DNA of 64,000 nt. Source: Letharia columbiana (taxonomy: Eukaryota > Ascomycota > Lecanoromycetes > Lecanorales > Parmeliaceae). Below the pieces are notes generated by a model. That model saw nothing but the letters and a program-made list of their open reading frames with translations. It had not been told where the DNA came from and ran no database searches. Below, piece after piece: positions 24,214 through 40,798 of this stretch (its first letter is position 1; every line of letters begins with the position of its first letter). Where the stretch lies: assembly GCF_014066305.1 (NCBI RefSeq), contig NW_023501168.1:1-64000 (forward strand). Reading direction: 5' to 3'. Made by a program: the position numbers and the translations under genes.

Positions 24214-24394
24214 TGTTGAAAGTAGGATATTAGACATATTAGAAAAGAATAATTGTTACTAAAAGACTGATTATTGATTTATGGAATATACGAATATTTA
24301 TATATATAAAATAGATGGCTGATGGTGGCTAGTAATTACTAGCCCTGATAATACGCGATATATATGCGATAGCCGAAGGGGCTAGTATTATAAT
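24214..24394 (+). repeat. 5' terminal repeat of TRIM copy 1
   Basis: Aligns with 25139-25321. It carries more C-to-T and G-to-A changes than its partner (ggatattagac against ggataccagac). It contains the perfect 18-bp palindrome GGCTAGTAATTACTAGCC at 24327-24344. Confidence 0.8.
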
Positions 24395-24562
24395 ACTCCC
24401 CGACAGCCTTAGAAGCTAAACCCCAGCACATCGTATTTCATATGTATTAGTTTTTCAAATCCACGCTTTGTATTCGGGATTGATTATTTGCCTGGCCTCG
24501 TTAAATCTATAAAAAACCCCGATAGGGAAAATAGAAAGAGTGCCGGGGCTTTTGAATACCCG

Positions 24563-24950
24563 TTTCGGGACCTCGGAATGATATGAGGGTTTTTGATGTT
24601 TTGCCCGTATTGTTTCGGGACCTCGGAATGATATGAGGGTTTTTGATGTTTTGCCCGTGTTGTTTTGGGACCTCGGAATGATCTGAGGGTTTTTGATGGT
24701 TTGCCCGTATTATTTCGGGACCTCGGATGAAATGAGGGTTTTTGATGTTTTGCCCGTGTTGTTTCGGGGTTTTGATGGTTTGCCCGTATTGTTTCGGGAC
24801 CTCGGATGAAATGAGGGTTTTTGATGTTTTGCCCGTGTTGTTTCGGGACCTCGGAATGATCTGAGGGTTTTTGATGGTTTGCCCGTATTGTTTCGGGGTT
24901 TTGATTTTTTGCCCGTATTGTTTCGGGACCTCGGATGAAATAAGGATTTT
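24563..24950 (+). repeat. 50-bp tandem array inside TRIM copy 1
   Basis: About seven full units and two shortened ones. Units begin at 24563, 24613, 24663, 24713, 24762 (30-base short unit), 24792, 24841, 24891 (30-base short unit) and 24921. Each full unit contains TTTCGGGACCTCGGA, then GAGGGTTTTTGAT and TTTTGCCCGT. The short units lack the middle 20 bases. The mutated copies at 39660-39840 and 46570-46830 keep about three to five units, so copy number varies between insertions. Confidence 0.88.
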
Positions 24951-24982
24951 AGTTCGATATTTTTTGTGTAGGGATTGAATGG

Positions 24983-25029
24983 CGATAGCCCTCTCGTCGG
25001 TGGGTACGAGCCAAAAAAATGGGCTATCG
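24983..25029 (+). repeat. Nested stem-loop in TRIM copy 1
   Basis: The outer stem CGATAGCCC (24983-24991) pairs with GGGCTATCG (25021-25029). The inner stem CTCGT (24993-24997) pairs with ACGAG (25006-25010). The same arrangement can be traced in the two RIPed copies (about 39570-39625 on the opposite strand, and 46870-46920). It could be a packaging or other RNA structure; that is inference. Confidence 0.65.
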
Positions 25030-25138
25030 TTATAGGGTGTATCTATTTATAAACGATCACCTGAAGACTTAGTTTGATATCTCTTAGAAAGTGTAAGGAT
25101 ATTTTGATACTGCCCTGCCCGCTTCCGGGCTCATAACC

Positions 25139-25321
25139 TGTTGAAAGTAGGATACCAGACATGTTAGAAATTGAATGATTGTTACTGAAAGACTGATTAT
25201 TGATTTATGGGATATACGGATATTTATATACATAAAATAGGTGGCTGATAATGGCTGGTAATTACTAGCCCTAGTAATACGCGACATATATGCGATAGCC
25301 GAAGGGGCTGGTATTGTAATA
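25139..25321 (+). repeat. 3' terminal repeat of TRIM copy 1
   Basis: Partner of 24214-24394, with fewer RIP-type changes. The last bases are ambiguous because the flank is also AATAAT. Confidence 0.8.
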
Positions 25322-26750
25322 ATAATCTTCTTATTCATTAATATAATTAAAGAGTTCTTTTAATAACTTATTAAATCGTTAAATTAATAAAAAATTATTT
25401 TTATTAATTCTTATTAAAAGTAAGAATAATTAAAAATCTCTATTATAGATCTTATAAATTTTTTAAATTTTTTCTAATATCGAATAAAAAGACTTCTCGC
25501 TTTATATCTTTAATAATTTATTCTAGTCTATATTAATAATATTATTATTTTTTTAATATTTCTTAATAATTATATTAAATATCTCGATTAGATATTAGAT
25601 TTACTAGAAAAAAATAAGATAACTCTCTTACTCTTTAAGTGTTATTTTACTTATTTACGTATTATCGCTTTAAAATATTATATTTCTAAACTTAATCTTA
25701 ATATTATAAAAGAAAAAATCGAAATAATTCGAAAAATAATCTTTTCGAGAAATCTTAGATAGCTAAAAATTAATTTAAGTTTCTTTAATTATTATTATAA
25801 ATTTATAGAATATTATATAACTATCGCTAGATTTTTAATTAAATTTAAAATTAAAAGTTTTAAAAGAAGCTTTAATAAGAATAAATCTCGATAAAATTAT
25901 ATAAAGAAGAAATAACTTTAATTAATATTAATTTAGGTTTTATAAAAATAGCTAAAGCTTTTAAATTAAATAAACTTATTATTAAAGAAGTAAATTTATA
26001 AATTAATTTAAAATATTATAAAATCTAAAAGATATTAAAAAATAAACTATATAATATATTAATACTCGTTTTCTTAAATTTTAATTAATTATTTATATTA
26101 TATATTAATAATAGTAAAAAGAAAGATTACGAGATAATACTATATTAAATTAATATTAATAAAATTAAATAATTAATTTTATTTCTATTACGCGATTTTA
26201 GTAATATTAAGATTTAATATTAAATTATAAAATTAAAAATTAATACTCTAATTTAAATATTGATTAAACTTTTCTAATTTTTTAATAATAGAGATTTTAT
26301 AATAATTACTAATTATATTATTTTAAAATCTATTTTTTAAAATAAAATTAATAATCGTTAATTCGCTTAATTAAATAAATAAGCTTTATATTTATTAACT
26401 TTTTAATTTAAAATAAAATTTATATATAAAATTTAAAGAACTTATAATAATATTAATAAATTATCTCGATTTTTTATTAAAGACTTATCTATAAAAGAAA
26501 TATTAATAATAAATTTAGATATAATTAATATTTTTTCTATAGTAATAGTATAAGTTAAAAAAATTCCTTAATAAAATTTCTATAACTTTATCTAATAATT
26601 TATACTTTAATTATATCTATAAATAAATCTAAAAGTAAATAAAGAAGATTAAAGATTTAGAATTTAGCTTATAAATTATCTATTAATTCTATTATCTCGA
26701 TATTAATTTAGAATTACTATCTAGGCCTCTCGCGTAGATCTAAACCTGTT

Positions 26751-26840
26751 AATCAACGGTTATATAACGGTTCAACAACTATTTAAGACATGTAACCGTT
26801 AGCCAACGGTCAATTAGCGGTCAATCAACGGTTGAAAAAC
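26751..26840 (+). repeat. Left subterminal 11-bp-spaced repeats
   Basis: Units spaced by 11 bases: AACGGTTATAT (26755), AACGGTTCAAC (26766), then a looser stretch including inverted AACCGTT (26794-26800), then AACGGTCAATT (26805), AGCGGTCAATC (26816) and AACGGTTGAAA (26827). An 11-base spacing puts successive sites on nearly the same face of the helix. Such short, mixed-orientation subterminal words are typical transposase-binding regions of CACTA-type elements; that role is inferred here. Confidence 0.65.
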
Positions 26841-27247
26841 AAGCACAAAGTTCCATGATTTCTCAACCATAACCTATCAGTCATTCAATGGTTAATTACC
26901 AGGTTTAATATCAAAGTTGATAAAGTACTTCTTGAAGCTATTCGCAACTATGAACAGCATAGTGCAGTATCTATAGATGATGTAGTCTATCGAAGCCTTT
27001 GGCATACATGATCATGCTCTATGCAGACTAAAGCTATGGTGCTCTCTGTATGTAATGCCTTGCTGCGTCCTCCTGCAAAGCCTCAAGTCAGTGTCAAAAT
27101 ATGTAGTATTGCGCTGGGGAACGAACACATACCAATTGAAGCCATAGGTGAAGCAATAGGTAGTGAAGCCATAGGTAGTGAAGCCATAGGTAGTGGAGCC
27201 ATAGGTAGTGGAGCCATATGTAGGTTGCTGAAGCCTTCGGCACACCA
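26841..27247 (+). other. Non-coding left spacer, including 15-bp minisatellite
   Basis: Spacer between the left terminal repeats and the stop codon of gene A. It holds GAAGCC-type words at 26992 and 27230 and the minisatellite listed separately. Short frames exist on both strands here, but they are just translations of the 15-bp repeat (IGSEA or GSTTY peptides). It probably contains the 3' UTR of gene A. I see no clear polyadenylation signal. Confidence 0.55.
27138..27223 (+). repeat. 15-bp minisatellite (GAAGCCATAGGTAGT)
   Basis: Units start at 27138 (12-base partial), 27150, 27165, 27180, 27195 and 27210 (diverging). Two units are GGAGCC instead of GAAGCC, and one is GAAGCA. It ends 6 bases before a copy of the island word AAGCCTTCGGCA. 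It lies downstream of the gene A stop codon. Confidence 0.9.
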
Positions 27248-28851
27248 TCACCAACCGCTATTACCATCTTCTCCACCATCAGAGACCATTTCACCGTCCT
27301 CCTCATCGCCGTCGACATCTGATACCTGGTCCTCGCCTACATCAACATCAGATTCTCCTGTAGTTGCGTCCGAGTCCTGATTAATGTCGACCTTCGGGCG
27401 TTTCTTGTACTGCACGCTGCGGGGTATTATACGCTCAGGATAGAAATCGAGCGACTGATGTTCGAATCCAGTCTTCTGATGGAGAGCGTCAAACAGGTCT
27501 AGGAGGTGCTTGCGTGTGTACTTTGCCAGCAATGGATTGATCGGATCCTCAAGGTGTAGCTCCGTCAAGCGGGAATGCGTGACAAGCTGCAGAAAGGCAT
27601 CTAGGTAGTAGAACAATTAGTCATTGCATTTGCAGCAGGCTTCGGCAGACCCATGAACAGGCATGGCAGGGGACTTACATTTGAGGAATCTCAGCCCATC
27701 TTCGGTAATCACCTCGAAATCCACTGCTTCAATTCCAAATCTGAACACACTCTCCAGCCATTTGGAATCGTACTCCTTGCGGACCTCCGCCTTGATACCC
27801 GCAAACGTCGATAATTCCGAGCGCAGCGCTTGACGCTTCAGACCTGTAGCACTCTTGATCCATCGCTGTATCCACTGTAGCGCCCACTTGAGGACCTCAC
27901 CTTTCCATGTCTTGTACGAACGTTGGACACGATACTTAGCCTCCCTGTATACTTGATGATCACTCCTCATACCTGGGAAGATAGCCCGAACGGGTTCGTC
28001 TGCGTAAGTATTTGACAGGAAGGTAAGAAAATAGCGCCTGGTCAACAGGTTCAACTGGGAGAAGGCCTCTGCTTCAGACTTTGACGAGTGTGTAGGGTCT
28101 TTGGTCCTCCTTTTCATAGTGCTGAACTGGCTTACAACAGCATCGTGTCCGTTCGTCTGACTCTGCGAATTGCTCCCAGGCATCAACGTTGCCGTCGAAT
28201 TACTTCGACTTCTCTCCTCCCCATCGAGAGTCTCATCGTCCCCTACACTCACGGCGTGCCGTGCATTTCCTGCTGAAACCTTCAAAGTCGTATTTGTAGG
28301 CTTGATGGTAGGAGGCTTGGTGGCAGCCGTAGCAGGCTTCGTGCGTGGGGGTTTGGAAGCCTCCGGCATGGGCTGCGTGGCAGCTGTGGCAGGCTTCGGG
28401 CGTGGGGTCTTTGAAGCCTCCGGCATGGGCTGTGTGGCAGCTGTGGGAGGCTTCGGGCGTGGGGTCTTTGAAGCCTCCGGCATGGGCTGTGTGGCAGCTG
28501 TGGGAGGCTTCGTGCGTGAATGCTTGGAAGCCTGCGGCATGGCCTGGGTGCTGGACTTCTTGGCCTGGGAAAATTGTTAGCTCAGAGCTGTGGAAGTGTC
28601 AGGTAACGTATTACTTTAGCAGGGCTGCTACATGGAGACGCATCGTTGACCTCTTCTGCGTCCGACTCGTCAAGAGATCGTTTACGTCGACGTCCATTAT
28701 GTTGAGACATGGTCCTCGCCAGCTCGTCCCTAGACTCGCTGTTCTGGATAAGAGGTCTCTCGGGTGTGGTATTGCGTGTCCTGGATCTAGGCTTGGGCTG
28801 CTGAGAGCCTGATACCTGTGATCCACGCTGGGTAGCCGGTTTACCTACCAT
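27248..28851 (-). CDS. Gene A: unrecognised 491-residue protein with 19-residue repeats
   Basis: Three exons: 28851-28615, 28564-27679 and 27600-27248 (stop included). Intron 1 (28614-28565, 50 bp) is GTAATA...GCTAAC...CAG. Intron 2 (27678-27601, 78 bp) is GTAAGT...CTAAT...TAG. Both keep frame, giving 491 residues. The N-terminus is Ser/Pro/Arg-rich, with RRRKR (54-58) as a likely nuclear signal. Four 19-residue repeats (MPEASKTPRPKPPTAATQP type) cover about 88-163. A globular, Trp/Tyr/Arg-rich domain (about 250-455) contains WKGEVLKWALQWIQRWIKS and ends near FYPERIIP. The tail is strongly acidic (Asp/Glu/Gly). I do not recognise the domain. It is divergently transcribed from gene B. By position it may be a DNA-binding accessory protein, but no motif proves that. 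Intact with no RIP. Confidence 0.72.
28313..28540 (-). repeat. Four 57-bp coding repeats in gene A
   Basis: Four tandem units of 57 bp in frame, each encoding 19 residues starting MPxASK. The MPEAS codons are a copy of the island word (TGCCGGAGGCTTC), so the coding repeat grew from the same word that forms intron arrays in gene B. Units differ by a few bases, and the first (MPQASKHSRTK) is the most divergent. Confidence 0.88.
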
Positions 28852-29501
28852 TATGGAAGCAATCGATGAAATATTCCTGCAGCTATGATAATTGGAGAAG
28901 AGAGGAACTTAGGCGAATCATATATCTCGTTGTGGAAGGAGCTGTCTGAAGTATCTCCAGGCTAAATTAAGTATCCGCGGCAGACTTTGGCGCCAAAACT
29001 TACCTAATCTCTCCATCTCCCTCGTAGAATAAATACACCTTCGTGCCCTCTTCAATTCTCGCAGTCCTGACCGCAACTCAAGAAAAACGAGCAGGCCAAC
29101 AAACGACAATATGCTTGGAGATGTGGGTCTCGCTGCAGAAGGCTGCTGCAGAGCAGTCTATCGGTTAGACCAGGTACCATCACGAAATCATGAAAGTACG
29201 ACTGCGAGCCTCTCTCTGTATACATGGGGCGAGAGTTGTCACTCATTTGCGCGTTGCTTAATTTCTGCATCTACCTTAGTCATAAATTCACTCTTTATGA
29301 GGAAGGTGCAAAATAAATTCCATCAGTTCTTGAAACCTCAATTCACGAGTCCTTGACCACCTCACTTCAACATCATCACCACAACTCGCCCTGCACGAGG
29401 CTGCAACCTAGTCTGACCGAAGTCTTACGCAGATAGATAGACACTCTGTAAGTTAACCCGCCTATCCTATTATTCTATGTCTAAAGCCTCCTGCAGTCAC
29501 G
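28852..29501 (+). promoter_or_regulatory. Divergent promoter region between genes A and B
   Basis: 650 bp between the start codons of gene A (minus) and gene B (plus), so it must hold both promoters and 5' UTRs. A candidate 5' UTR intron for gene B lies at 29448-29496 (GTAAGT...CTGCAG, 49 bp), ending five bases before the ATG. No clear TATA box or CCAAT pair stood out. Small frames on both strands here lack support and look accidental. Confidence 0.5.
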
Positions 29502-32500
29502 ATGGTGTTCTCATTGATCGGAGTTCGCGAGGAAGAGCTGGCTTTCCGCAAGCACGAAGATCTTCGTGCAGAACTAGGATTCGTGGACATGAATGAAATG
29601 AAACGCTTCGTTAAAAGTGATCGATTCAGACCGTACTTCGAAACCTACGCTTATGCCTGGATACTACCGCAACAAAAAGCCGTGAAACATGTGGGCACGT
29701 CTCGTGGACGAGGGCCACAATTCATCACAGTCGAGGAGCGCATGCTTGTTGGGGAGCGGTCAGGGTCTGACAAGTTTTCAACTCCATACCCTGACAAATC
29801 TAATTGGGATCAAATGGACCATTGTGCCTACGCAATGTACGGCATTTGTCGCGCCAACACCAAGAGTGCTTCGGGATTGTTCTTCAACAAAGGACTTTCG
29901 CCGGCGCAAATCAACCTGAGAGTTTGGTTGCTCATTAAATATGAGGAGTACAATTGGGCCCCCTCTAGACGCCTCCCACCAGGAGGTACGCGAGACCCTT
30001 CCGCAGAGAGTGAGCCAGAGCGTTCAGTAAGCACCCAGCTGCTGCAGCCTTCAGCGAGCACTCTGCAACAGGCCAGCAACACACCGCAGCCTCCGACTCC
30101 GAATCTGCCAGATCGTTCGGTAGGTGCTCGTTCGGTAGGTGTCTTCAGAAAGCACCCTTTCGCAGACATGCTAACCCCGAGCAGGGCAGTGTACCACCGC
30201 AGCCTCCTACAACCCCTCCCCGACTCACTCCTCCACCGCCTCCGTCTCCTGAGGATGAGCGGCTCGCCCGAATTAGGCTTGCCACTAACTTCCCATCGAG
30301 TGCTGCTCACAATCAAGAGATAATACAACCCGACAAGTGGGTGGAAGTTGTACAGTCAAATAACCAGAAGCTTGAGTTCGATCGTGATGTTGACGAGGAG
30401 AACAAAGATAGCATTGAGACTGAGATTTTGACAAACGCTCAAATAATGGCGATCGAGAATGGAGCTAGGAAGTTTGATATCAAGGAGCGGTTTTGGAAAG
30501 CATGGCTTATCGACGAGTTGATTCGAAAGGGTAATGATGTGAGGGCTTTCAAGGAAAGTCTTGAACTAGCTGGACAAATTACTACTCGCATTGCAGATCA
30601 TGATCAGAAGGCCTGGTTTGACAAAGTCACGCGTGATCAGGGAATAGACACTATTCAGTATCAGCCGTGGGATGATGCAGCAGCGGCGGAATTTGACGCG
30701 CAGCAGTCATACTTCGACAGTGAAGACTACCAGCGGGAAGATCTCGAGGACTCGTGCCGTCTACTTCACATACCTTGGTACGGTGACAAGACTATCTTCC
30801 GCATGCCTGGTATGAACCTATCTCAACAGCTCAAGTTTTGGCAGCCAGTAGCCGTGAAGGCGATCATTGAGTTTTGTCTACAGCCTCACTTGCGGGCCTG
30901 CTTTCTAGCAGACTACACCGGCCTGGGGAAAACATGGATTATTGTTAGCTATCTCTTATGGGTAAGCCCCTTTCTATTAATATGCATGCCCTGCCACAGG
31001 CTTCCTGCCACAGGCTTCCCGCCACAGGCTTCCCGCCACAGGCTTCCGCAGACAGGCTTCCGCTGCAGGCTTTCGCTGACTGTTGATCTAGCTCCAGAAA
31101 TTCCGTGAGGATATTCCTGCCAAGGACCGACCCCTTGCGAAACCAATCCTTATCCTAATGCCCAAAGCTCTCATATCGCAGTGGATCAAAGCTATTGACC
31201 TCATCGCCCCAAACGCCTTCGAAGTATACAAGTACCATGGAGATACTCGACGTTCGAAGCCTATCGCAAATGAGCGCACGGTCATGGGAACTCTCCATCA
31301 CGCACACGAGCTGTTCGATGGAAAGGAGCAGCGTTCCAGAGCCATAATCATAAGCAGCTACACGACATTCGCGGTTCGCCATGGTCCCGCAGCTATTCGA
31401 AAGCACCGGATCAACAAGTTGGCCATGTCGAAGACGGAGGCTGACAAGATTCGCTTTCAAGCAGACGCTCTTTGGGAAGGAAGCTTGGAAAATTGCTTTG
31501 ACTTGGTGGTCAACGACGAATGCCACCTATTGAAATCTCTCTCTGCCGATGTCTCCAATTCGGTGTTGTGGTTGAATGCTTTGCGCTACATCATGATCAG
31601 CGCCACCCTCATCCCTAATGGCATCAGTGACTGGTTGGGCTATATGCCCTTTGCCGAACCATTTGACGCTGACGAGTGGTGGTCGGAGAGATCACTTGCG
31701 GAGATGCGCTTTAGGGATGACGAAGATCCGTTCTCCGTTCCTGACGAGCATGTAGCAGCTAAGCTGCAGCTTACCGTTCGCGCTGTGAAGGATTGGATTC
31801 TTACTCACCGAATAGATCCTGCCGAGCAAGGTTTCCGAATGGCCAAGATGTGGAAAAAGCTAGTGATTCGCCGCACCCCACAGAGTCGAATTCCTTTCGG
31901 AACAGGTCGTAAGATCGCTGATTCTCTACCGCGTGTCAAAGCTGCTATCATCAATTGTTCATTCAATGAGGAAGAGCGAGGGTGGTACATTGAATCCGAG
32001 AAGAAACTTACTGGCCAGCTCCTTGTCCCTGGAGAAGGGACAAAACCGGCAAAGTGGTCGCTGGCGGTACAGCGCAAGTTACTATTGTTGACGACATGGA
32101 TCAGTCTCCCTAATCTAGATGAGATCCAGAACCTGAAGTCAACTAACATGAAGAGAACTTTTGATGAGGAGCGTTTCTTTCTCGAGTGGTTTACGGCTCA
32201 CACAAAACCGAGTATGGAGAACCCGGGCCCATTGCTCCAGGAATTGCTTGAGGGTGCGCCGAAGCTACGTGCTCTACTTCGCAATGTTCGCAGCCAGGTA
32301 TGTACATGCTTTGCTGTTTCTATGGGTGTGCGACAGGCTTCCTGCCACAGGCTTCCGCAGCAGCCTCCCACAGATGTCTCTCTACAGCAGCCTTCCGCAA
32401 ATGCTAATTTCGCCGTAGGTTGTGAGAGACCAGGAGAAGATCCTGATCTTCTGTCAATTACCGGCTGTCACGGTACTCCTCGTCGCAATCTTCCGACTTC

Positions 32501-33039
32501 TCGCGATCGATTGTGTAACCCTCGGTGCCTACCAGCAGGCAGAAGAGCGCGATGCTGTTATCACGGCGTTCACTGAGTGTACCGATCGGGCTCAGATTCT
32601 GATCACGACATACGCGGTGGGGTCGACTGGTCTGAACCTACAACAGATGTGTTGGAGAGTTCACATGGTCGAGTGTGCGCACAATTTGGGTGTCCAGGCC
32701 CAAGCCCTCGGACGCGCGGTACGTGTGGGAAACCCGAGCGCGGTGGTATGGATGTATGAATACTACGTCGCTGGTAGTTTTGACAGTCGAATGATCTGGA
32801 GAAATATTGAGAAGGCTATACCGCAGGCAATGGCGGAGTTGAATCGACAGATCTTCAACGGCGGAGATGATGCAGGAGACGTCACCGTCGATCTCGGAGA
32901 ATGGGTGTTTAAGGAGGGGGAGATGGTAAGATACGATCGAATTGAATGGAATGAGTGGGATAGGCCTCACATCTTGTCACCACACGAGGTGCTTCAGTAT
33001 ATCCTGTTGCAGCGAAAGGGCGAGGAAATCCTCCTTTAG
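29502..33039 (+). CDS. Gene B: SNF2-family superfamily 2 ATPase/helicase-like protein (1,078 aa)
   Basis: Four coding exons: 29502-30134, 30185-30961, 31092-32297 and 32419-33039. Introns are 50, 130 and 121 bp with GT...AG ends and branch-point-like GCTAAC, GCTGAC and GCTAAT. Residues 1-150 form an unknown conserved-looking domain; a Pro/Ser/Gln-rich linker follows (about 155-240). The ATPase core has motif I ADYTGLGKT (Lys about 460), motif Ia MPKALISQW (about 493), motif II NDECH (Asp about 612), motif III SAT (about 640), IFCQ of motif IV, STGLNLQ of motif V, and motif VI QALGRAVRVGN (967-977). SNF2 proteins translocate on double-stranded DNA and remodel DNA-protein contacts. DECH replaces the usual DEAH/DEGH, and Tyr-Thr replaces Glu-Met before GLGKT. 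No extra reader domain was seen. The first donor could instead be at 30120. Confidence 0.88.
30992..31077 (+). repeat. CAGGCTTCC array filling intron 2 of gene B
   Basis: Six copies of CAGGCTT(C/T)C with spacing starting at 14 bp (CACAGGCTTCCTGC) and shortening to about 12-13. It takes up two thirds of the 130-bp intron and stops just before the branch-point-like GCTGAC. The copies differ at the base after CAGGCTTCC (T, C or G). Confidence 0.9.
32332..32399 (+). repeat. CAGGCTTCC/CAGCCTTCC array in intron 3 of gene B
   Basis: Four degenerate copies of the same word as in intron 2 (CAGGCTTCC twice, CAGCCTCCC, CAGCCTTCC), again placed just upstream of the branch-point-like GCTAAT. The two introns share this sequence but not position or phase history. 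Confidence 0.85.
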
Positions 33040-33750
33040 GTATGCCAAACCCTGCTGCTGAAAGCTTCTATCCTACTGATTTCTCTATCTACAGGTGATA
33101 TGCGGAAGCCTGCGGCATGAAGCCTGTGGCAGGAAGTGTGCTGCGGCGGCATCTTTGACCGAAGATATGGCAACTACTTGATCATGGCATGTCTTTGAAG
33201 CTTCTGGCAGAGAGGCCCTTCTTTCCTTTCTACGACCTACATTATAGTGATTGCAACCTGTGCGCCCTAGTGGCAGTTGGAGACTACTACGGTAGTCTTC
33301 AGAGGGAGAGTCGACAACTCCAGTACAGGTTGCATCAAATTCTTGCTGTATGTATATATGGCGGCCGCAGGGACGTAAGTCCAACCAGAACTTTTCATAC
33401 TCGCAAATCCATTGATCAAGTCCGAGAAATCTGCACCGAAAATGCAATGCGCACTATCCAGCACTGCACCTAAGAAGCTCAGTGACTCATATAGCCCACC
33501 TAGGCTAACAACCGACGTTTCTATTATAACTGAATGTCTGATTAAGGATTGTGAACTTGAATTATATACCATTGCCGATAGCCCATCGAGATGCGCTAAG
33601 GCTTACTTACAGAGTTCATGCGGCTCTCCGATAAGGTTACGCTTCCAATTCTGTAGTCTCCACTCTCCCCCTCGTCCGAAGTCTTTTGGCAGGTCCATAT
33701 TTGTCCAGAATTGCCCATTGAGAATCATCCTATTGGTTCCCCATTGAAGA
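33040..33750 (+). other. Intergenic region B-C with a probable 3' UTR intron
   Basis: 711 bp between the TAG of gene B and the ATG of gene C. Directly after the stop codon, 33040-33094 has all the signals of an intron (GTATGC...TACTGAT...CTACAG, 55 bp). Its downstream flank starts with two copies of the island word (33098-33130). From 33160 on I see only short frames with no conserved-looking features, including a 111-codon frame ending at 33747. The promoter of gene C must lie here. Confidence 0.5.
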
Positions 33751-36700
33751 ATGACATCCCGACCTCGCAAGATAAATCAACTGCGAGTACTCAACTGGAA
33801 CACTAACGATAATGATCGGTCTTCATCACCTCCGAGTCCGAACCTTACCTATCACACCCGCGACGATGTGACCGATAACGAGACACCTGCTAGCTTTCCC
33901 GATGACCTTCCCCCTGCCGGTGACCTTCCTCCTACCGATGACTTTGCCCCTTCAAATGACTTTCCTGCTGGGCATTTCCAAGATGACCAAGATTCCTTTA
34001 GACAGCCTGATGAAGGCTTCCGCAGTGAGACACTTTCACCCGCAGCCTCTAGCGATTCCTTTAGGCAGCCTGATGAAGGCTTCCGCAATGAGACACTTTC
34101 ACCCGCAGCCTTTAGCAACAACGAGAGCAATGAGCAGATGGGTGACGATATGAGCATCGATTCACCATCTCACGATTCCGACGGAGAGGTGCACGGGCAG
34201 GGGCAGGCATACACAGCTACAGACAGTGACGGGGATTCAGGCGGTGAAGATGATGAAGATCTATTCATTGTATTTGATTCCCCAAGATGCAGTGTCGTCG
34301 TACTGATCATCGCACAGCCCATCGGAGAAGTCAGCAGAGTACCTCAAGAATCTCGACCACTTACCTTCCTTGAACTGCTTGAAGACCTTAACGCCTCCAG
34401 CGATGAGGATGAACAACCAGCTTCTCCATCACCAAGTCCAGAACCGCAGGACCTAGAGCGGACACCCTTACCAGTCCTTTCCCATCAAGCTCAATCACCG
34501 GCTCCCTCCCCAACTCCGTCATTTGAAATAATTGTCCAGCAAGGTGGGAAAGACACCCTACCTCCACCACTACATCTGGCATTAGGCCTATGGTTCGAGA
34601 AGTCGGGTGGGTCGCGGGCAGACTACGTAAGACTGCGAGAGGTTTTCCAGCTGTCGAAGCCTTCAGCAGCAGGGAGCTCCATGGTTGAGGAAGGGAATGA
34701 GGACTCGGAACTAGACATGCATACCCTCCCGTTGAAGCTAGATACACTGAAGCGGCAGATTCGTCGACATATTCCCTTATTGCAACTGTTACGGAAGCCT
34801 CTCACAGTCATGATCGAGAAACAGCCATCACTGCCGCAACGAGAGAAGGGTATGCAACGACAAAGCATTGAACGTCAAGCATGGCAATATTGGTATGAAC
34901 CCTTGGACCTTATACGCACCATACTATCAGCGACATATCTACGCGAAAAAATGTTCTTCGGGATGGCACAGTATGTGGATGAGCCGACAGAGCTTTGGCA
35001 GTCACATGCATGGGGATCTTCCATTCGGTCAACGTCAGGGGAAGTTTGTCATACCCAGAAAAGGGCACTTATCATTCCTGGGGATCTAGTGCGAATCCGT
35101 TCATCTCCATATCGTATCGGACGTGTGATATTCATTGGTCGCGATTATCGACAAGGCGCAACAGGACACATTGTCATAACATTGCAGGCAGTTGCAGACC
35201 ATGGAGCATCTATTCTCGACAGCTTCGACTTGAATCTAGATAATGAGCATGAGCTCTTTCTTATAGAGGATGTTTTGCTAGAGCAGACTCCGCAATCTAT
35301 CACCCGACATCTTGATATCTATTATGATCGTGACTTTGGAGGAGATGAAGAAGAGGTTGTCTATCCAGACGATCGTCGCTTCATTCGAAGGGTTCTCAAT
35401 TTCAATTCGTCTACTATACGGCCTCTGCGTCAATTACATCCGACCCGTGGCGAGCTCGAGATAGCACATTTTGGTCGTGATTATCTCGAAGCCGTTGTCG
35501 CAAAATCTCCTATCAGTTTTCCCTACCTCCTCTTTGTTGATGATTTCGGTATTCACAGAAATATGTACCGTGCACTTAAAGCATTTTATCTTATCCCGGC
35601 ATGTCTAGACTACGCGGAGCGTAGAAAACTTGCGAATGTGTTTACTCTATCCTTGGGACCTCATGGTGCCAACATCAAGGACGTGGTGGAAGCCTTCCGC
35701 AAACCCATACAGGATCTGGACCGTGGGATAGAGCTTGAAGTCAATGGCGTTACGGACATATTTTGGGCTTTCGCCTTGACATTTCTTGGGGATATGCCCC
35801 AGCAGGCAGACAATGGTGGCTTCATGAGGCATACCGCTACTATGGGCTGTCGCACTTGCTATTGCTCGAAAGATGAGAGGGCGAATTTGGATTTTGATAT
35901 CGTAGGGAACGGCAGGTATCATTGGGAGACTACTCAACAACGCGAATTTGCTGGAGATCTCGACGGTGCCGAACTCAAGGAGTTCATTCAGGATACCGGT
36001 ATACGACTCGATGCCCCCCCAATCGCGAAGCTGGCGCCATCCTTGGATCTCATTCAGTCTAGAGCCTATGACGCTCCCCACTCGGAGTGGAGAGGTTTGG
36101 GGAGGATTCTCCAGGGATTCTTGATGACTACGATTCTCACCAAGCGTAAATCTACTACCTATCTCAAGGCATTTTAGAAGTTCTACTTCCCTTCTGAGTG
36201 AAAGCGTATTTAAAGCCCGACATTCTATATTTAGTTATAGTTACTTTCGGAGGCAGGTAAAGCTACTCTACTGGCGCCACTGATTCTACGTAGCAAAGCA
36301 ACAATCGGATGGATCCGTCTCCCGTTCCTACAGGCTGCGGAAAAAGTCATGACCTTCGAAACAACGCCACTCCAGGCTATCGTGCGGGCGTTCGGACTTA
36401 TTGCTCGATCTAATACCGTTGTTGGTAGTCAAAGGTATACTGAGCCAACCATACTACATCAACAGATTCTGGATGCGCGCAAGGCTTACCAGGAGCTAAT
36501 CACATGTGCGACGCCCGCTGCGGGAGGCTTCGGTAACCCTGGTGAGGATGAGGATGATTCCGAAGATGGAACCGCCCTGGAGGAAGTCCTTTCGGACGCA
36601 GCGCACAGTGACTCGGAAACAGAAGTGCTACAGCATATGCCGAAGCCTAAGCCAGCCAAGGCCAAGGGAAAGGGAAAGGGAAAGGGCAAGGAACGAAGGA

Positions 36701-37748
36701 AACCTCGTGGTAATAAATTCGAGAAGCTTCTCAAGCTTCCGAATGTTCACGCAGGCCTTCATCTTGCAGATAATGCCAGGGAGTATGCGACAGTCATGAA
36801 TTCGAATGTTTTGGCGGGAGAATTGAAGCACAAGTTGTTTACACCGTTTTCCCCGCAATCGCAGTCACTGACAGTCGCTCCCAGGGTCTTCAAAGGCATG
36901 GCAGACGCTGCGGCGCCACCAAACTTGATGGGTTATCTATTCGCAAAGGACGTGATGCGGCAGTCATTGCGACTGGGCTTGGTAGGTGCTTGGGATCATG
37001 ACCATCCAGATATGGTGGAAGCACTTAGATTGCTTAATGACCAGTGTGCGACGTTGGTACAGAGCTTTCTTCCAATCGGTGAGCAAGATCTAGATGAGGG
37101 TTATGCGGAAGGCTTCCACAGCGTTATGGGAGATGACGAGCACTGCTCTACGCAGGTCTCGCTCAGGGGGTTTGTACTTGATGGATTCTTTCGCATCAAG
37201 GCGACGACCAATCTAATGAGACTTGACCCACAGCATAGCTTTATTCAGCACTTCATGGCCGCCTACAGGAACGAGTATAGTCTTAATGTGTTGGACTTTG
37301 GTACAGCTGCTTTGAAATGGTATCGCAGGATTGCCTACACAGATCCGTGAGTGTAGCGCAGCGTATGCTCCTTGGATAGGCTGACGGAGCCTTCCCCAGG
37401 GCCAATCGGAGACATGTGTACAGTGTCAATGACTATGTGCAGGTTGGCACCAGAAAGGGTCAACTGCTACAATGTTTTGCGCACACCTATCGCCGGAAGA
37501 AATACGCTTTTCTTGTCGTGCATGTCATGACAGAGCTGCGTCAAGGCGATCTGGGAAATGTTGGAGATGATCCAGTGCTGGATACAGTGCTGGACCTTCC
37601 AGTGTACAGGCGACAGGCAAATCAGTATGTGTACGGATTGCCAGCCCTACATCATGATACCATTTACATGATCGACGTTCCCAACGAACCAGACTGGCCA
37701 GATGAGTCGCATTATTTAGAATGCACATGGGGAGTGGCATACTTGTGA
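33751..37748 (+). CDS. Gene C: Tnp2-like (CACTA/EnSpm-type) transposase (about 1,277 aa)
   Basis: Exons 33751-36145, 36257-37346 and 37400-37748. Introns 36146-36256 and 37347-37399 each keep frame (one splits CGT, the other CCG). The N-terminus is Asp/Pro/Ser-rich with acidic repeats, including two 21-residue units (DSFRQPDEGFR...). The core has LFVDDFGIHRN (Asp 597/598, probable first catalytic acid), then NVFTLSLGPHG, FLGDMPQQADNGG (Asp 681) and GCRTCYC (Cys 700/703/705, zinc-binding in the family). A Lys/Gly-rich basic linker precedes LLKLPNVHAGLHLADNAREY (His about 963) and YAEGFHS (Glu about 1083, possible final catalytic acid). Such enzymes cut transposon ends by an RNase H-fold mechanism. 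A 48-bp in-frame intron (34270-34317, TACTGAT branch) is also possible and would give 1,261 aa. The family name rests on motif pattern, not on a search. Confidence 0.72.
34002..34127 (+). repeat. Two 63-bp coding repeats in gene C
   Basis: Two adjacent copies of a 21-residue unit (DSFRQPDEGFR, ETLSPAA). GATGAAGGCTTCCGC in each unit is again the island word, here read in a different frame (EGFR) from gene A (PEAS). Confidence 0.85.
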
Positions 37749-37938
37749 GAGCTCGACAGGTGGGCTTGCTTACATTGCTGAAGGCTTCGGCGGAGTGCCA
37801 TGTACTTGTGTATGTATAAGAGCGAACGAGTCACTAATTATCTATAGTGAGAGAGACTGCAAGAGGCTGCAATACTGATATACGGTGAAGACACTGCGGT
37901 AGGCTGCGTAATTATGATTAAGGTAGTTACATAAGGGT

Positions 37939-37994
37939 AGAGGCGGTTGTTCGCCTATCAAATAACCGCCTCTATTCGTTTTTTAATAGGCGAA
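37939..37994 (+). repeat. Two overlapping inverted repeats near the right end
   Basis: AGAGGCGGTT (37939-37948) pairs with AACCGCCTCT (37964-37973). TTCGCCTAT (37950-37958), inside the first loop, pairs with ATAGGCGAA (37986-37994), outside it. The stems interlock, so only one can form at a time, or they form a pseudoknot in RNA. It could be a terminator-like or switch structure, or subterminal recognition DNA. Confidence 0.75.
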
Positions 37995-38070
37995 TAACCA
38001 AAAACGTTATTGAGGTTGTTCAACCAACTAAAGACCTCTTCCCTTAGAACCCACTACGATTATAGTTTTA

Positions 38071-38103
38071 CAACCGTTCTACAACCGTTTTATAATGGTT
38101 ATA
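38071..38103 (+). repeat. Right subterminal repeats, inner block
   Basis: Three units at 11-base spacing: CAACCGTTCTA (38071), CAACCGTTTTA (38082) and TAATGGTTATA (38093, diverged). Same word as at the left end, opposite orientation. Confidence 0.65.
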
Positions 38104-38334
38104 ATAATTTTTATTTTTATTTTTTTTACTAAGTCTCGAATAGGCTAGTAGTATTATATGATATATCTTCTAATATAAAAATTTCGCTAAAATTCGAAAA
38201 AAACGAATTTTAAGTTGTTAGCGTTGATATTTAAGCTTATATATACTAAGCGAATTTTCAGCCCTATAAAGAACTTTAAAATTAAAATTTATTTTTAGTT
38301 ATTATATAGATTATTTATAGTTCTATAAGAATCG

Positions 38335-38439
38335 TATAACCGTTCTACAACGGTTTTACAACCGTTCGACAACCGTTCGACAACTGTTACGTGACCGTCA
38401 CGTGACCGTCACATGACCGTTGAACAACCGATGTGAAAT
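38335..38439 (+). repeat. Right subterminal 11-bp tandem array
   Basis: About nine units of 11 bp, drifting from CCGTTCGACAA (twice) to CCGTCACGTGA and CCGTCACATGA, then CCGTTGAACAA and CCGATGTGAAA. Variants CACGTGA introduce CACGTG, an E-box-like sequence. The exact 11-base period equals about one helical turn. Confidence 0.85.
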
Positions 38440-38528
38440 TATGAGTTAGGATAATTCTTCTAACGAGTATGAATTGAGTTTCGTATCGGTTGTATATCGG
38501 TGATACATCGGTTGTTTATCGGTTATTA
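38424..38528 (+). repeat. Large imperfect palindrome at the right end
   Basis: The arm ACAACCGATGTGAAA (38425-38439) is matched, with two changes, by the reverse complement of 38480-38495. The second arm continues as units ATCGGTTGTAT, ATCGGTGATAC, ATCGGTTGTTT and ATCGGTTATTA at 38485, 38496, 38507 and 38518 (11-base period), complementary to the array at 38335-38439. The centre (38446-38465) has its own hairpin, GTTAG/CTAAC. Confidence 0.7.
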
Positions 38529-38580
38529 GTTATAGAACCGTTGTATAACGGTAATATATCTTTAGTAATGGCCAGGACAG

Positions 38581-40798
38581 TAATATTAAAAAATAAGAAA
38601 GATATAATAGAGATTTAGATAATAATATATTTCGATTAGATCTATAGATTTTAAAGAATTCTCTATAAATTAATCTTTAATTAAGACTTTAAATTTATTA
38701 ATATATTCTAAAAAACGTTATTCTTAAAATATAAGATAATACTTAAAATAATAATAACTTATTATTCTTCGATAAATAAGTAAATAGAATATATAAATTA
38801 AATAATAAAGATAATTTTATAATATCTACTTATCGATAAATATAAAAAAAATTAAAATATTCTACTATTAAAAGTTAAGTATTTTCTAAATATTATAAAA
38901 AATACTTTAACTTTTATTATTTCTTTCGAAGTACTTTATAAAGTTAAATTTAGAGATTTTCTAATAAATATAATCTTAAATAAAAATTTAATATCTATAG
39001 ACTTTATTAAAATTTAAAAAATAATTTATAATAATATTTCTAACGCTATTAAGTTTATATAAACTAAGATAATTATTAGATATAATATTAAATATAGAAT
39101 CTCTAATTTAATTAATAATATATATTTTAAATTAGCTAAAACTAAAGATATAGATTATTATATCTTTAAGAATTTCTTATTATTTATTAAAAAAGTCGAT
39201 TTATATAGAATTCTTAAAAAAGATTAATACTTTAATCTATAAGATAAAACTTCTATCTAATATATTTAGAGTTTATTTTATTATAATACTAGCCCTTTCG
39301 GCTATCGTATATATATCGCGTATTACTAGAGCTAGTAATTACTAGTTACTATTAGCTATCTATTTTATATATATAAATATTTATATATCTTATAAATTAA
39401 TAATTAGTCTTTTAGTTATAATTATTTAATTTCTAATATATCTAATATTCTACTTTTAATAGATTATAAGCTCGAAAGCGGGTAGAATAGTATTAAATAT
39501 TCTTATACTTTCTAATATAAATATTAAACTAAGTCTTCGATAATCTTTTATAAATAGATATATCTTATAGCGATAGCCTATTTTTTTTAGCTCGTATCTA
39601 TCGACGAGAGAGCTATCGCTATTTAATCCTTATATAAAAAATATCGAATTAAAATTCTTATTTTATCTAAGATCTTAAAATAATACGGGTAAATCATTAA
39701 AACTCTTAGATTATTTCGAGGTTCTGAAATAATACGGGCAAACCATCAAAATTCTTATATTATTTCGAGGTCTCGAAACAATACGGGCAAACTATTAAAA
39801 CCCTTATTTTATTCGAGATCTTGAAACGGGTATTTAAAAGCCTCGGCACTCTTTCTATTTTCTCTATCGAAGTTTTTTATAGATTTAACGAGGTTAGATA
39901 AATAATTAATCTCGAATATAAAGTGTGGATTTAGAAATTAATATATATAAGATATAGTATATTAGAATTTAAGAAATCTTAGCTTTTAGAGTTATCGAGA
40001 AGTATAATAATATTAATTTCTTCGACTATTATATAATATATCGCGTATTACTAGAGCTAGTAATTATTAGCTATTATTAGTTATCTATTTTATATATATA
40101 AATATTCGTATATTTCATAAATTAATAATTAGTCTTTTAATCAATTTCTAATATGTCTAATATCCTACTTTTAACATATTTAATTATTTTAATTATTTAT
40201 CTAAAGTAGATTAAGTTAAACTCTTTTAATAGAGAGATATTTTTATTTATATCTATAATTATTAAAGAATAAGAGAAGTATATAATAGAGAAGATTATAT
40301 ATTAAAAGAAATGAGGGAAGAAGAATAAATATCGTATACGCTAAAAAGAGTACTTCGAAATTACTTAAAAATCTATTAGTATATTTCGAAAGAATATATT
40401 AAAAATAGTCGAGAAATTCGAGAAGTTAAGAATATGAAAATAAGGTTATAAATTCTCGCTTTCTTTTCTATCCTTATAAAATAAGAATAGATTAAAATAA
40501 ATCTAAATCTTTTTATTATTATACTTCTATCTTTATTTATATAAATATATTTATATCTTATTTTAATTTAATAATATTCTACTCTAATTATATTTTATAT
40601 TTATTAATATATAAATATTATATATATAAATACTATATATATAAATATTACTATAAAAATAATAACGCTTTCGTTTTTTATTATTAATATAATTTATTAA
40701 AAGCTTTATATATAGATATAAGAATATCTCTAAAGAGGAGATTAATTCTTATCTAATTAATTAATCGCGAATTAAAATAAATAATAATTATATTTAGC
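38581..40798 (+). mobile_element. Gypsy-3 right arm (integrase core to 3' end), carrying a TRIM copy
   Basis: Similarity to 56838-58160 begins exactly at TAATATTA (38581), inside the integrase core of Gypsy-3, and continues to about 40798. It is interrupted only by the reversed TRIM at 39283-40176. Both copies are heavily RIPed, this one more so. It ends where a homopolymer stretch starts, so any 3' LTR is lost or unrecognised. This is the other side of the element whose left arm lies at 20536-26736. Confidence 0.78.
39283..40176 (-). mobile_element. TRIM-like element, copy 2 (reverse orientation, RIPed)
   Basis: Reverse complement of the 24214 element. Terminal repeats are about 39283-39465 and 40015-40176, the latter ending ...TTTTAACA (TGTTAAAA on the minus strand). 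The 50-bp units are reduced to about three (39660-39840). The empty site is visible in the other Gypsy-3 copy: AGTTTATTCGATTATTTTAATT near 57530. Here the flanks read TTATT before and TTAATT or TATT after the element, which fits a 5-bp target duplication altered by RIP. Confidence 0.8.

Follow-up and report, generated by a model that had tools for sequence, protein, structure and literature searches.

A probable multi-copy CMCT-type DNA transposon with an SNF2 gene, and its RIPed copies, in Letharia columbiana

Does a block of three genes standing in strongly AT-rich DNA of Letharia columbiana represent a single mobile element, and, if so, what might an SNF2-type ATPase be doing in it? The block lies in bases 1-64000 (64,000 bases, hereafter the window) of contig C133 (NW_023501168.1), one of 161 contigs in an assembly of 52.2 Mb; C followed by a number denotes a contig, while gene C is the transposase gene. 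The GC content is about 0.5 within the element and about 0.12 in its flanks, and from the AT-rich repeats, the introns and the pattern of mutation we infer a filamentous ascomycete host with repeat-induced point mutation (RIP). As a whole, the explanation that we consider well supported and probable is that the block is a DNA transposon of the CACTA/Plavaka/Transib-like (CMCT) type, about 11.5 kb in length, recently active and present in multiple copies, with three genes of its own (A, B and C).

The evidence that carries this explanation is the set of copies elsewhere in the same assembly. Pieces of A, B and C used as queries found at least 28, at least 33 and at least 61 matches, respectively, which were clustered manually into 17 places besides the window, 12 with all three genes and five partial (lower-identity matches were left outside this count, except for a second subfamily described below). 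At all 12 places the order and orientation A(-) B(+) C(+) are unchanged, with an A-B spacing of about 12 kb in the C6 copy at 1.31-1.33 Mb. Many TAA and TAG stops interrupt the matches at the 12 and the five places, and C>T or G>A accounts for 39,524 of 40,098 differences from the window copy (98.6%), the remainder being 109 changes in the reverse direction (T>C/A>G) and 465 transversions. These counts come from 46 aligned loci, which partly overlap and represent all 12 three-gene places and four of the partial ones. Once RIP-type changes are left out, identity to the window is 98.6-100%, so at the time of RIP the copies were about 99% identical to the window copy. RIP has hit each of the 12 other three-gene copies, and the window copy is the only un-RIPed one found. 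Because the three-gene block exists in so many mutated copies, it appears to have moved as one unit, and the proposal of a first-pass annotation of the window that this is one multi-gene transposon is borne out in this genome, where A-B-C recurs with its order unchanged, an identical left end and a common right end; neither A, B and C at separate host loci nor a block without shared ends was seen within it.

Where does the element begin and end? On the left, conservation begins at CTATCTAGGCCTCTCGCG in nine copies aligned with the window; C4 agrees and the first bases are altered in C2. On the right, copies extend 254 bp beyond the equivalent of 38025, via a run of AACCGCTATT-like words, to CTAAAYAG, so that the element termini read CTATC...CTAAAYAG, with TA followed by CTATCTAGGCC at the left boundary and CTAAAYAG followed by TA at the right one. 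This right terminus was read in six of the 15 fetched right-end regions, each time at 254 bp. In the other nine it has been lost (C53, C2) or altered (C73), the fetched piece is too short (C20), matching stops at 37882 (C9), or there is no match (C12, C7, C48 and C73 at 92-102k, four regions placed by estimated distance). Two-base duplications are equal in four of the five copies with both ends read, as AA/AA in C27 and as TA/TA in C34, C4 and the C6 copy at 1.26 Mb. The window contains nine AACSGTT-type words in 134 bp at its left end, 16 in 555 bp at its right end and three in the 11,175 bp between, and when the bases of the left and right stretches were shuffled 2000 times the means were 0.11 and 0.33 words. 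The same short word had been reported at both ends by the first-pass annotation, and it is indeed dense at both, but the right half belongs to a separate miniature inverted-repeat transposable element (MITE). The proposed span of 26737..38580 must likewise be corrected, since the left terminus is at 26717 and the right end is that of the foreign MITE.

This MITE is recognisable because the repeat at 38026-38580 occurs at 24 further places in matches that start at the identical base, cover at least 520 bp and are 78-96% identical. Seven copies read in detail are 672-707 bp long. Their left terminus, 125-147 bp beyond that base, resembles C[CT]GTCCTGCCC but is mutated in one copy; on the right they finish in GGCCAGGACAG or something close to it, and TA stands just outside in 7/7. 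These seven are 93-96% identical to the window part, have TA on both sides and are apparently hardly RIPed though longer than 400 bp. The two flanks of the element in the window lie 363-364 bp apart, each at TA, in 5/5 fetched copies of the host repeat, and on this spacing and the separate MITE we reject 38580 as the right terminus of the element. Inverted copies of a further repeat lie to either side of the element (window 24248-25322, 39278-39937 and 40036-40139); this repeat has a tandem array of about 50 bp and an TACTGCCCTGCCCG motif (25108 on) resembling the MITE ends, and its left copy is less AT-rich.

Three multi-exon genes lie between 27248 and 37748 (Table 1), B and C having been spliced by GT-AG rules and open frame, and, as judged by eye, all but one of the seven introns show branch-like and acceptor sites of good fungal type. 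B matches the Pfam domains SNF2-rel_dom (9e-22) and Helicase_C (5.8e-8), and motifs I, Ia, II (DECH), III, IV, V and VI can all be located on two RecA-like lobes, so the complete SNF2 core noticed earlier is confirmed. Its matches to solved structures (13 sequences, all weak, best E 1.4e-7) are SNF2-type remodellers and one chain labelled DEAD/DEAH-box helicase. Protein A has a basic N-terminus, an acidic tail and a middle that is mostly helical in a low-confidence AlphaFold2 model (164 aa, mean predicted local distance difference test score (pLDDT) 47.6, too poor for a fold search), and it has no match to Pfam at E up to 10. Gene A contains a tandem repeat with a 57-bp unit at window 28314-28598, and two of seven RIPed loci are one unit off the window copy, one longer and one shorter. 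The word AGGCTTC/GAAGCCT is repeated in exons, introns and spacers around the three genes (window 26992-37783): with the tandem of gene A left out, GAAGCC/GGCTTC occurs 27 times against 6.2 expected and a maximum of 14 in 300 simulations. For one 11-base form of this word, GCAGGCTTCCG, a host-wide occurrence gained no support: it has 23 sites genome-wide against 14 for the reversed control, which is near chance.

Gene C encodes D597, D681, C700xxC703, H963xxxH967 and E987, placed by motif only, and D, D, C2C, H3H, E is the motif set given by Kojima for the CMCT clade (PMC12730594). When 539 aa of C were modelled in AlphaFold2 together with one relative, the mean pLDDT of 29.2 was too poor for a fold search. 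That C has relatives is seen in an open transposase on C73 (178152 on), 36% identical to C over the alignment, with the same motifs in the same order and a weak score of 17.2 bits (E 0.003) against the Plavaka model PF18759, below its cut-off of 26.3 bits. It lies in a second GC-normal island (loci L078, L016 and L079, C73:175.1-184.6k), in which its frame of 1037 aa is open and the place of A is taken by what may be a minus-strand gene, with a 163-aa frame and no similarity to A by BLAST; this island, which yielded no SNF2 gene, is possibly a two-gene relative. In the window, C is open only when 36146-36256 is spliced out, so that the earlier description of three intact spliced genes, sound as to three multi-exon genes, overstates the case for C with its in-frame 111-bp segment of five stops.

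Table 1. Positions of the element, its genes and its surroundings in the window, and places of the other copies in the assembly
Feature	Position	Strand	Remark
Left flank, AT-rich host repeat (position 1)	26317..26716	+	host-repeat copies
TA, left half of target-site duplication	26715..26716		alignment of copies
Left terminus CTATCTAGGCC	26717..26727	+	conserved inward in nine RIPed copies, unlike outside
Transposon body	26717..38025	+	homologous to RIPed copies over full length; own last 254 bp missing in window
Left subterminal array, AACGGTT/AACCGTT-like words	26759..26840	+	word counts
Gene A	27248..28851	-	491 aa; exons 28851-28615, 28564-27679, 27600-27248
Gene B	29502..33039	+	1073 aa; exons 29502-30119, 30185-30961, 31092-32297, 32419-33039
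Gene C	33751..37748	+	1277 aa as spliced; exons 33751-36145, 36257-37346, 37400-37748
In-frame 111-bp segment, five stops	36146..36256	+	intron or RIP-like lesion
Fusion point, three-gene element and separate MITE	38025..38026		repeat matches begin here
Right part of MITE, right terminus GGCCAGGACAG, own AACCGTT words	38026..38580	+	foreign to element
TA, target-site half of the MITE itself	38581..38582		right end
Right flank, same host repeat 363-364 bp further on	38581..38982	+	5/5 other copies read
Three-gene copies	C27, C34, C53, C12 (0.83 Mb), C7, C2 (1.73 Mb)
Three-gene copies, continued	C9 (0.80 Mb), C4, C48, C73 (165-174k), C20, C6 (1.31-1.33 Mb)
Partial copies	C6 (1.26 Mb; B not found), C5, C73 (92-102k), C62, C12:768k (A only)

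How did the window copy come by its foreign right end, and is its transposase alive? In the simplest history a single host repeat would have received both the element and the MITE, at sites about 364 bp from each other, and a deletion of about 0.75 kb would then have removed, in one event, the right end of the element, the host repeat between the two sites (363-364 bp) and the MITE's left part. Did the copy instead move as a chimera, with the left end at 26717 and 38026-38580 as a working pair of ends that duplicated TA? The TA on both sides would agree with this, as would the match of CTATCTAGGCC and CTGTCCTGGCC at 8/11 terminal bases; we nevertheless hold it to be very improbable, because the flank spacing in all five host-repeat copies fetched is what two insertions plus a deletion predict and no second chimeric copy was seen among 10 aligned right ends. 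The window copy lies in an AT-rich, presumably RIPed repeat and therefore probably inserted after that repeat was mutated, and as the ends of MITE and element are similar, the same transposase may serve both. The state of C is a far closer matter, and the proposal that the window C is dead, its 111-bp segment being a RIP-like lesion within an exon and not an intron, falls only a little short of an even call in our judgment. In frame, it lines up with sequence that is coding in the C73 relative and, except for one stop, also in a relic on C7 of normal GC content; opposite the five stops stand Q, W, R, W, W of this relic and, in C73, R, W, Q, A, Y. At four sites in these 111 bp, compared with 56 in 11,309 bp, the window has A or T and a G or C survives in some of the RIPed copies, and the branch site is poor by eye. 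On the side of an intron are the GT-AG ends, the length in frame, the open exons downstream and the agreement with the window, mostly RIP-type changes aside, in 14/14 aligned copies; being common to all 14, the segment would predate the burst.

Does B take part in transposition, or has it simply been carried along? A divergent RIPed subfamily, 26-36% identical over longer alignments, has A, B and C together on C2 (1803-1815k) and C18 (388-399k). GC-normal relics hold open pieces of B on C64 (195 aa, 50% identity, proportion of amino-acid-changing differences (pN) 0.34, of synonymous differences (pS) 0.78) and on C2 at 93.6k (73 aa, 73% identity, pN 0.15, pS 0.86), and the C64 relic also has a piece of C (68% identity, pN 0.23, pS 0.94). 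At one GC-normal locus (L085, C64:179942-180748) an open B piece abuts an open antisense C piece. Since synonymous change is saturated and amino-acid change is not, B seems to have been under selection; by its recurrence in the divergent subfamily and a pN far below pS in the relics, it looks like more than a passenger, and A, B and C look, from sequence comparison, like a lasting set. If A and B were passengers taken from the host, with C alone sufficing for transposition, then a relative without B would be in order, and the GC-normal C73 island does have a related transposase, with no B detected there in tblastn (E up to 1). We consider this unlikely, given that B stays with C in the divergent RIPed subfamily and in a relic, that pN is well below pS in the relic pieces, and that, with indels counted in the coding parts of 22 loci, the net frame is kept by A at 7/7 RIPed loci and by B at 5/7, four of which are indel-free. 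We favor a scheme in which C would bind the termini and arrays and then cut and paste, and B may clear or slide nucleosomes, giving C access to donor ends and target TAs, with its work proposed to take place in the AT-rich, presumably heterochromatic DNA that holds the sampled copies. TnpA helps to assemble the ends of En/Spm, and A may help to assemble ends in a similar way. Could B be a counter-defence instead, opening silenced chromatin for expression of the element and standing outside the transposition reaction? Every sampled copy is in AT-rich DNA, and there is an analogy with the TET/JBP genes on fungal transposons, which one paper describes as thought to aid escape from methylation-based silencing (PMC12730594). 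However, B gives no protection from RIP, because every other three-gene copy has been RIPed, and we see this role as possible though doubtful; our data do not separate it from a role of B at the element ends. The flanks of sampled copies have a GC content of 0.10-0.32 at 9/9 left ends and 0.12-0.27 at 6/6 right ends, which fits, and does not prove, a function of B in reaching such DNA.

Several observations weigh against the explanation of the block as a CMCT-type transposon with three working genes. The C6 copy at 1.31-1.33 Mb has unequal end dinucleotides (TA/AG), and the left and right termini are alike over a few bases only. The label of Tnp2-like transposase, which holds for C at motif level, goes no further, as C reaches no Pfam transposase model and has no meaningful match at E up to 10. 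In several RIPed copies C also carries indels that shift the frame (12 in the C9 copy), as well as in-frame ones, which leaves its pre-RIP frame less certain than those of A and B. With pS saturated, constraint on B can be gauged only coarsely, and the AT-rich flanks may merely mark the sites where copies survive or the spread of RIP. Lastly, transposition is deduced from the copies, the roles of A and B are proposed ones, and the evidence for the element comes from one genome.

Is such an element new? The first-pass annotation knew of no described element with this gene set, but SNF2-bearing Entons are in print, at least as brief descriptions. According to a 2012 meeting report, Kapitonov presented two groups of fungal elements, Entons with En/Spm and Intons with IS3EU among the ancestors named for the two, and with five to six conserved proteins (PMC3520738), and Bao and Jurka (2013) place an SNF2 helicase in both (PMC3627910). 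Entons, as described, share with our element an origin said to lie in En/Spm, a fungal host, several conserved proteins and one SNF2 helicase (PMC3520738, PMC3627910), and differ, in a comparison by description only, in having five to six conserved proteins where we find three genes, small unrecognised ones being possible. The Enton is the closest precedent, our element resembles it in kind, and the idea is not wholly new; no fuller account of such elements was found in the open literature, most subscription papers and Repbase having been outside the search.

Plavaka elements share the D, D, C2C, H3H, E motifs, and PlavakaA has 2-bp duplications, whereas their termini are TGT..ACA or CATCA..TGATG as opposed to CTATC..CTAAAYAG here (PMC12730594); the word SNF2 is absent from the main text of that paper. 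C gives no hit to PF18759, and a search of the genome with this model matched four other places, none of them of the three-gene family. Assignment of C to Plavaka was rejected, as neither C nor its C73 relative has a real match to a canonical Plavaka of this genome by profile or BLAST. Canonical Plavaka transposases above the Pfam cut-off, with no stops in the matched stretch, are present as a separate family at L095 (C86) and L096 (C112). EnSpm/CACTA elements differ in their CAC..GTG termini and 3-bp duplication (PMC12730594), against CTATC..CTAAAYAG and 2 bp here. The EnSpm-like ESTA families have TA duplications (PMC12730594, section 3.1.6), but are described with a TET/JBP gene and no SNF2 is named, a comparison again by description only (PMC12730594). 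KolobokH and AcademH are likewise fungal DNA transposons with an accessory helicase; KolobokH differs in its RecQ-type helicase and transposase superfamily, and AcademH in its duplications of 9-10 bp (PMC9587614, PMC10045372, PMC10799480). A scan of viral contigs gave four pattern matches, none a relative. The element is a variant of a barely described kind.

What would such an element mean? Transposases must act on chromatin, and their way through it is largely unknown. An element with its own SNF2 motor makes the question of chromatin access testable by a small assay, and a natural series is present in one genome: an un-RIPed copy, a dozen RIPed copies, a divergent three-gene subfamily and a relative in which no SNF2 gene was found. 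We tentatively put forward, as a conjecture that is more likely wrong than right, that this is a CMCT lineage in which an SNF2 remodeller has become fixed in the transposition machine and enables the element to enter and leave the AT-rich heterochromatin made by RIP. If that were true, the product of a host defence would have been turned into the preferred home of the element.

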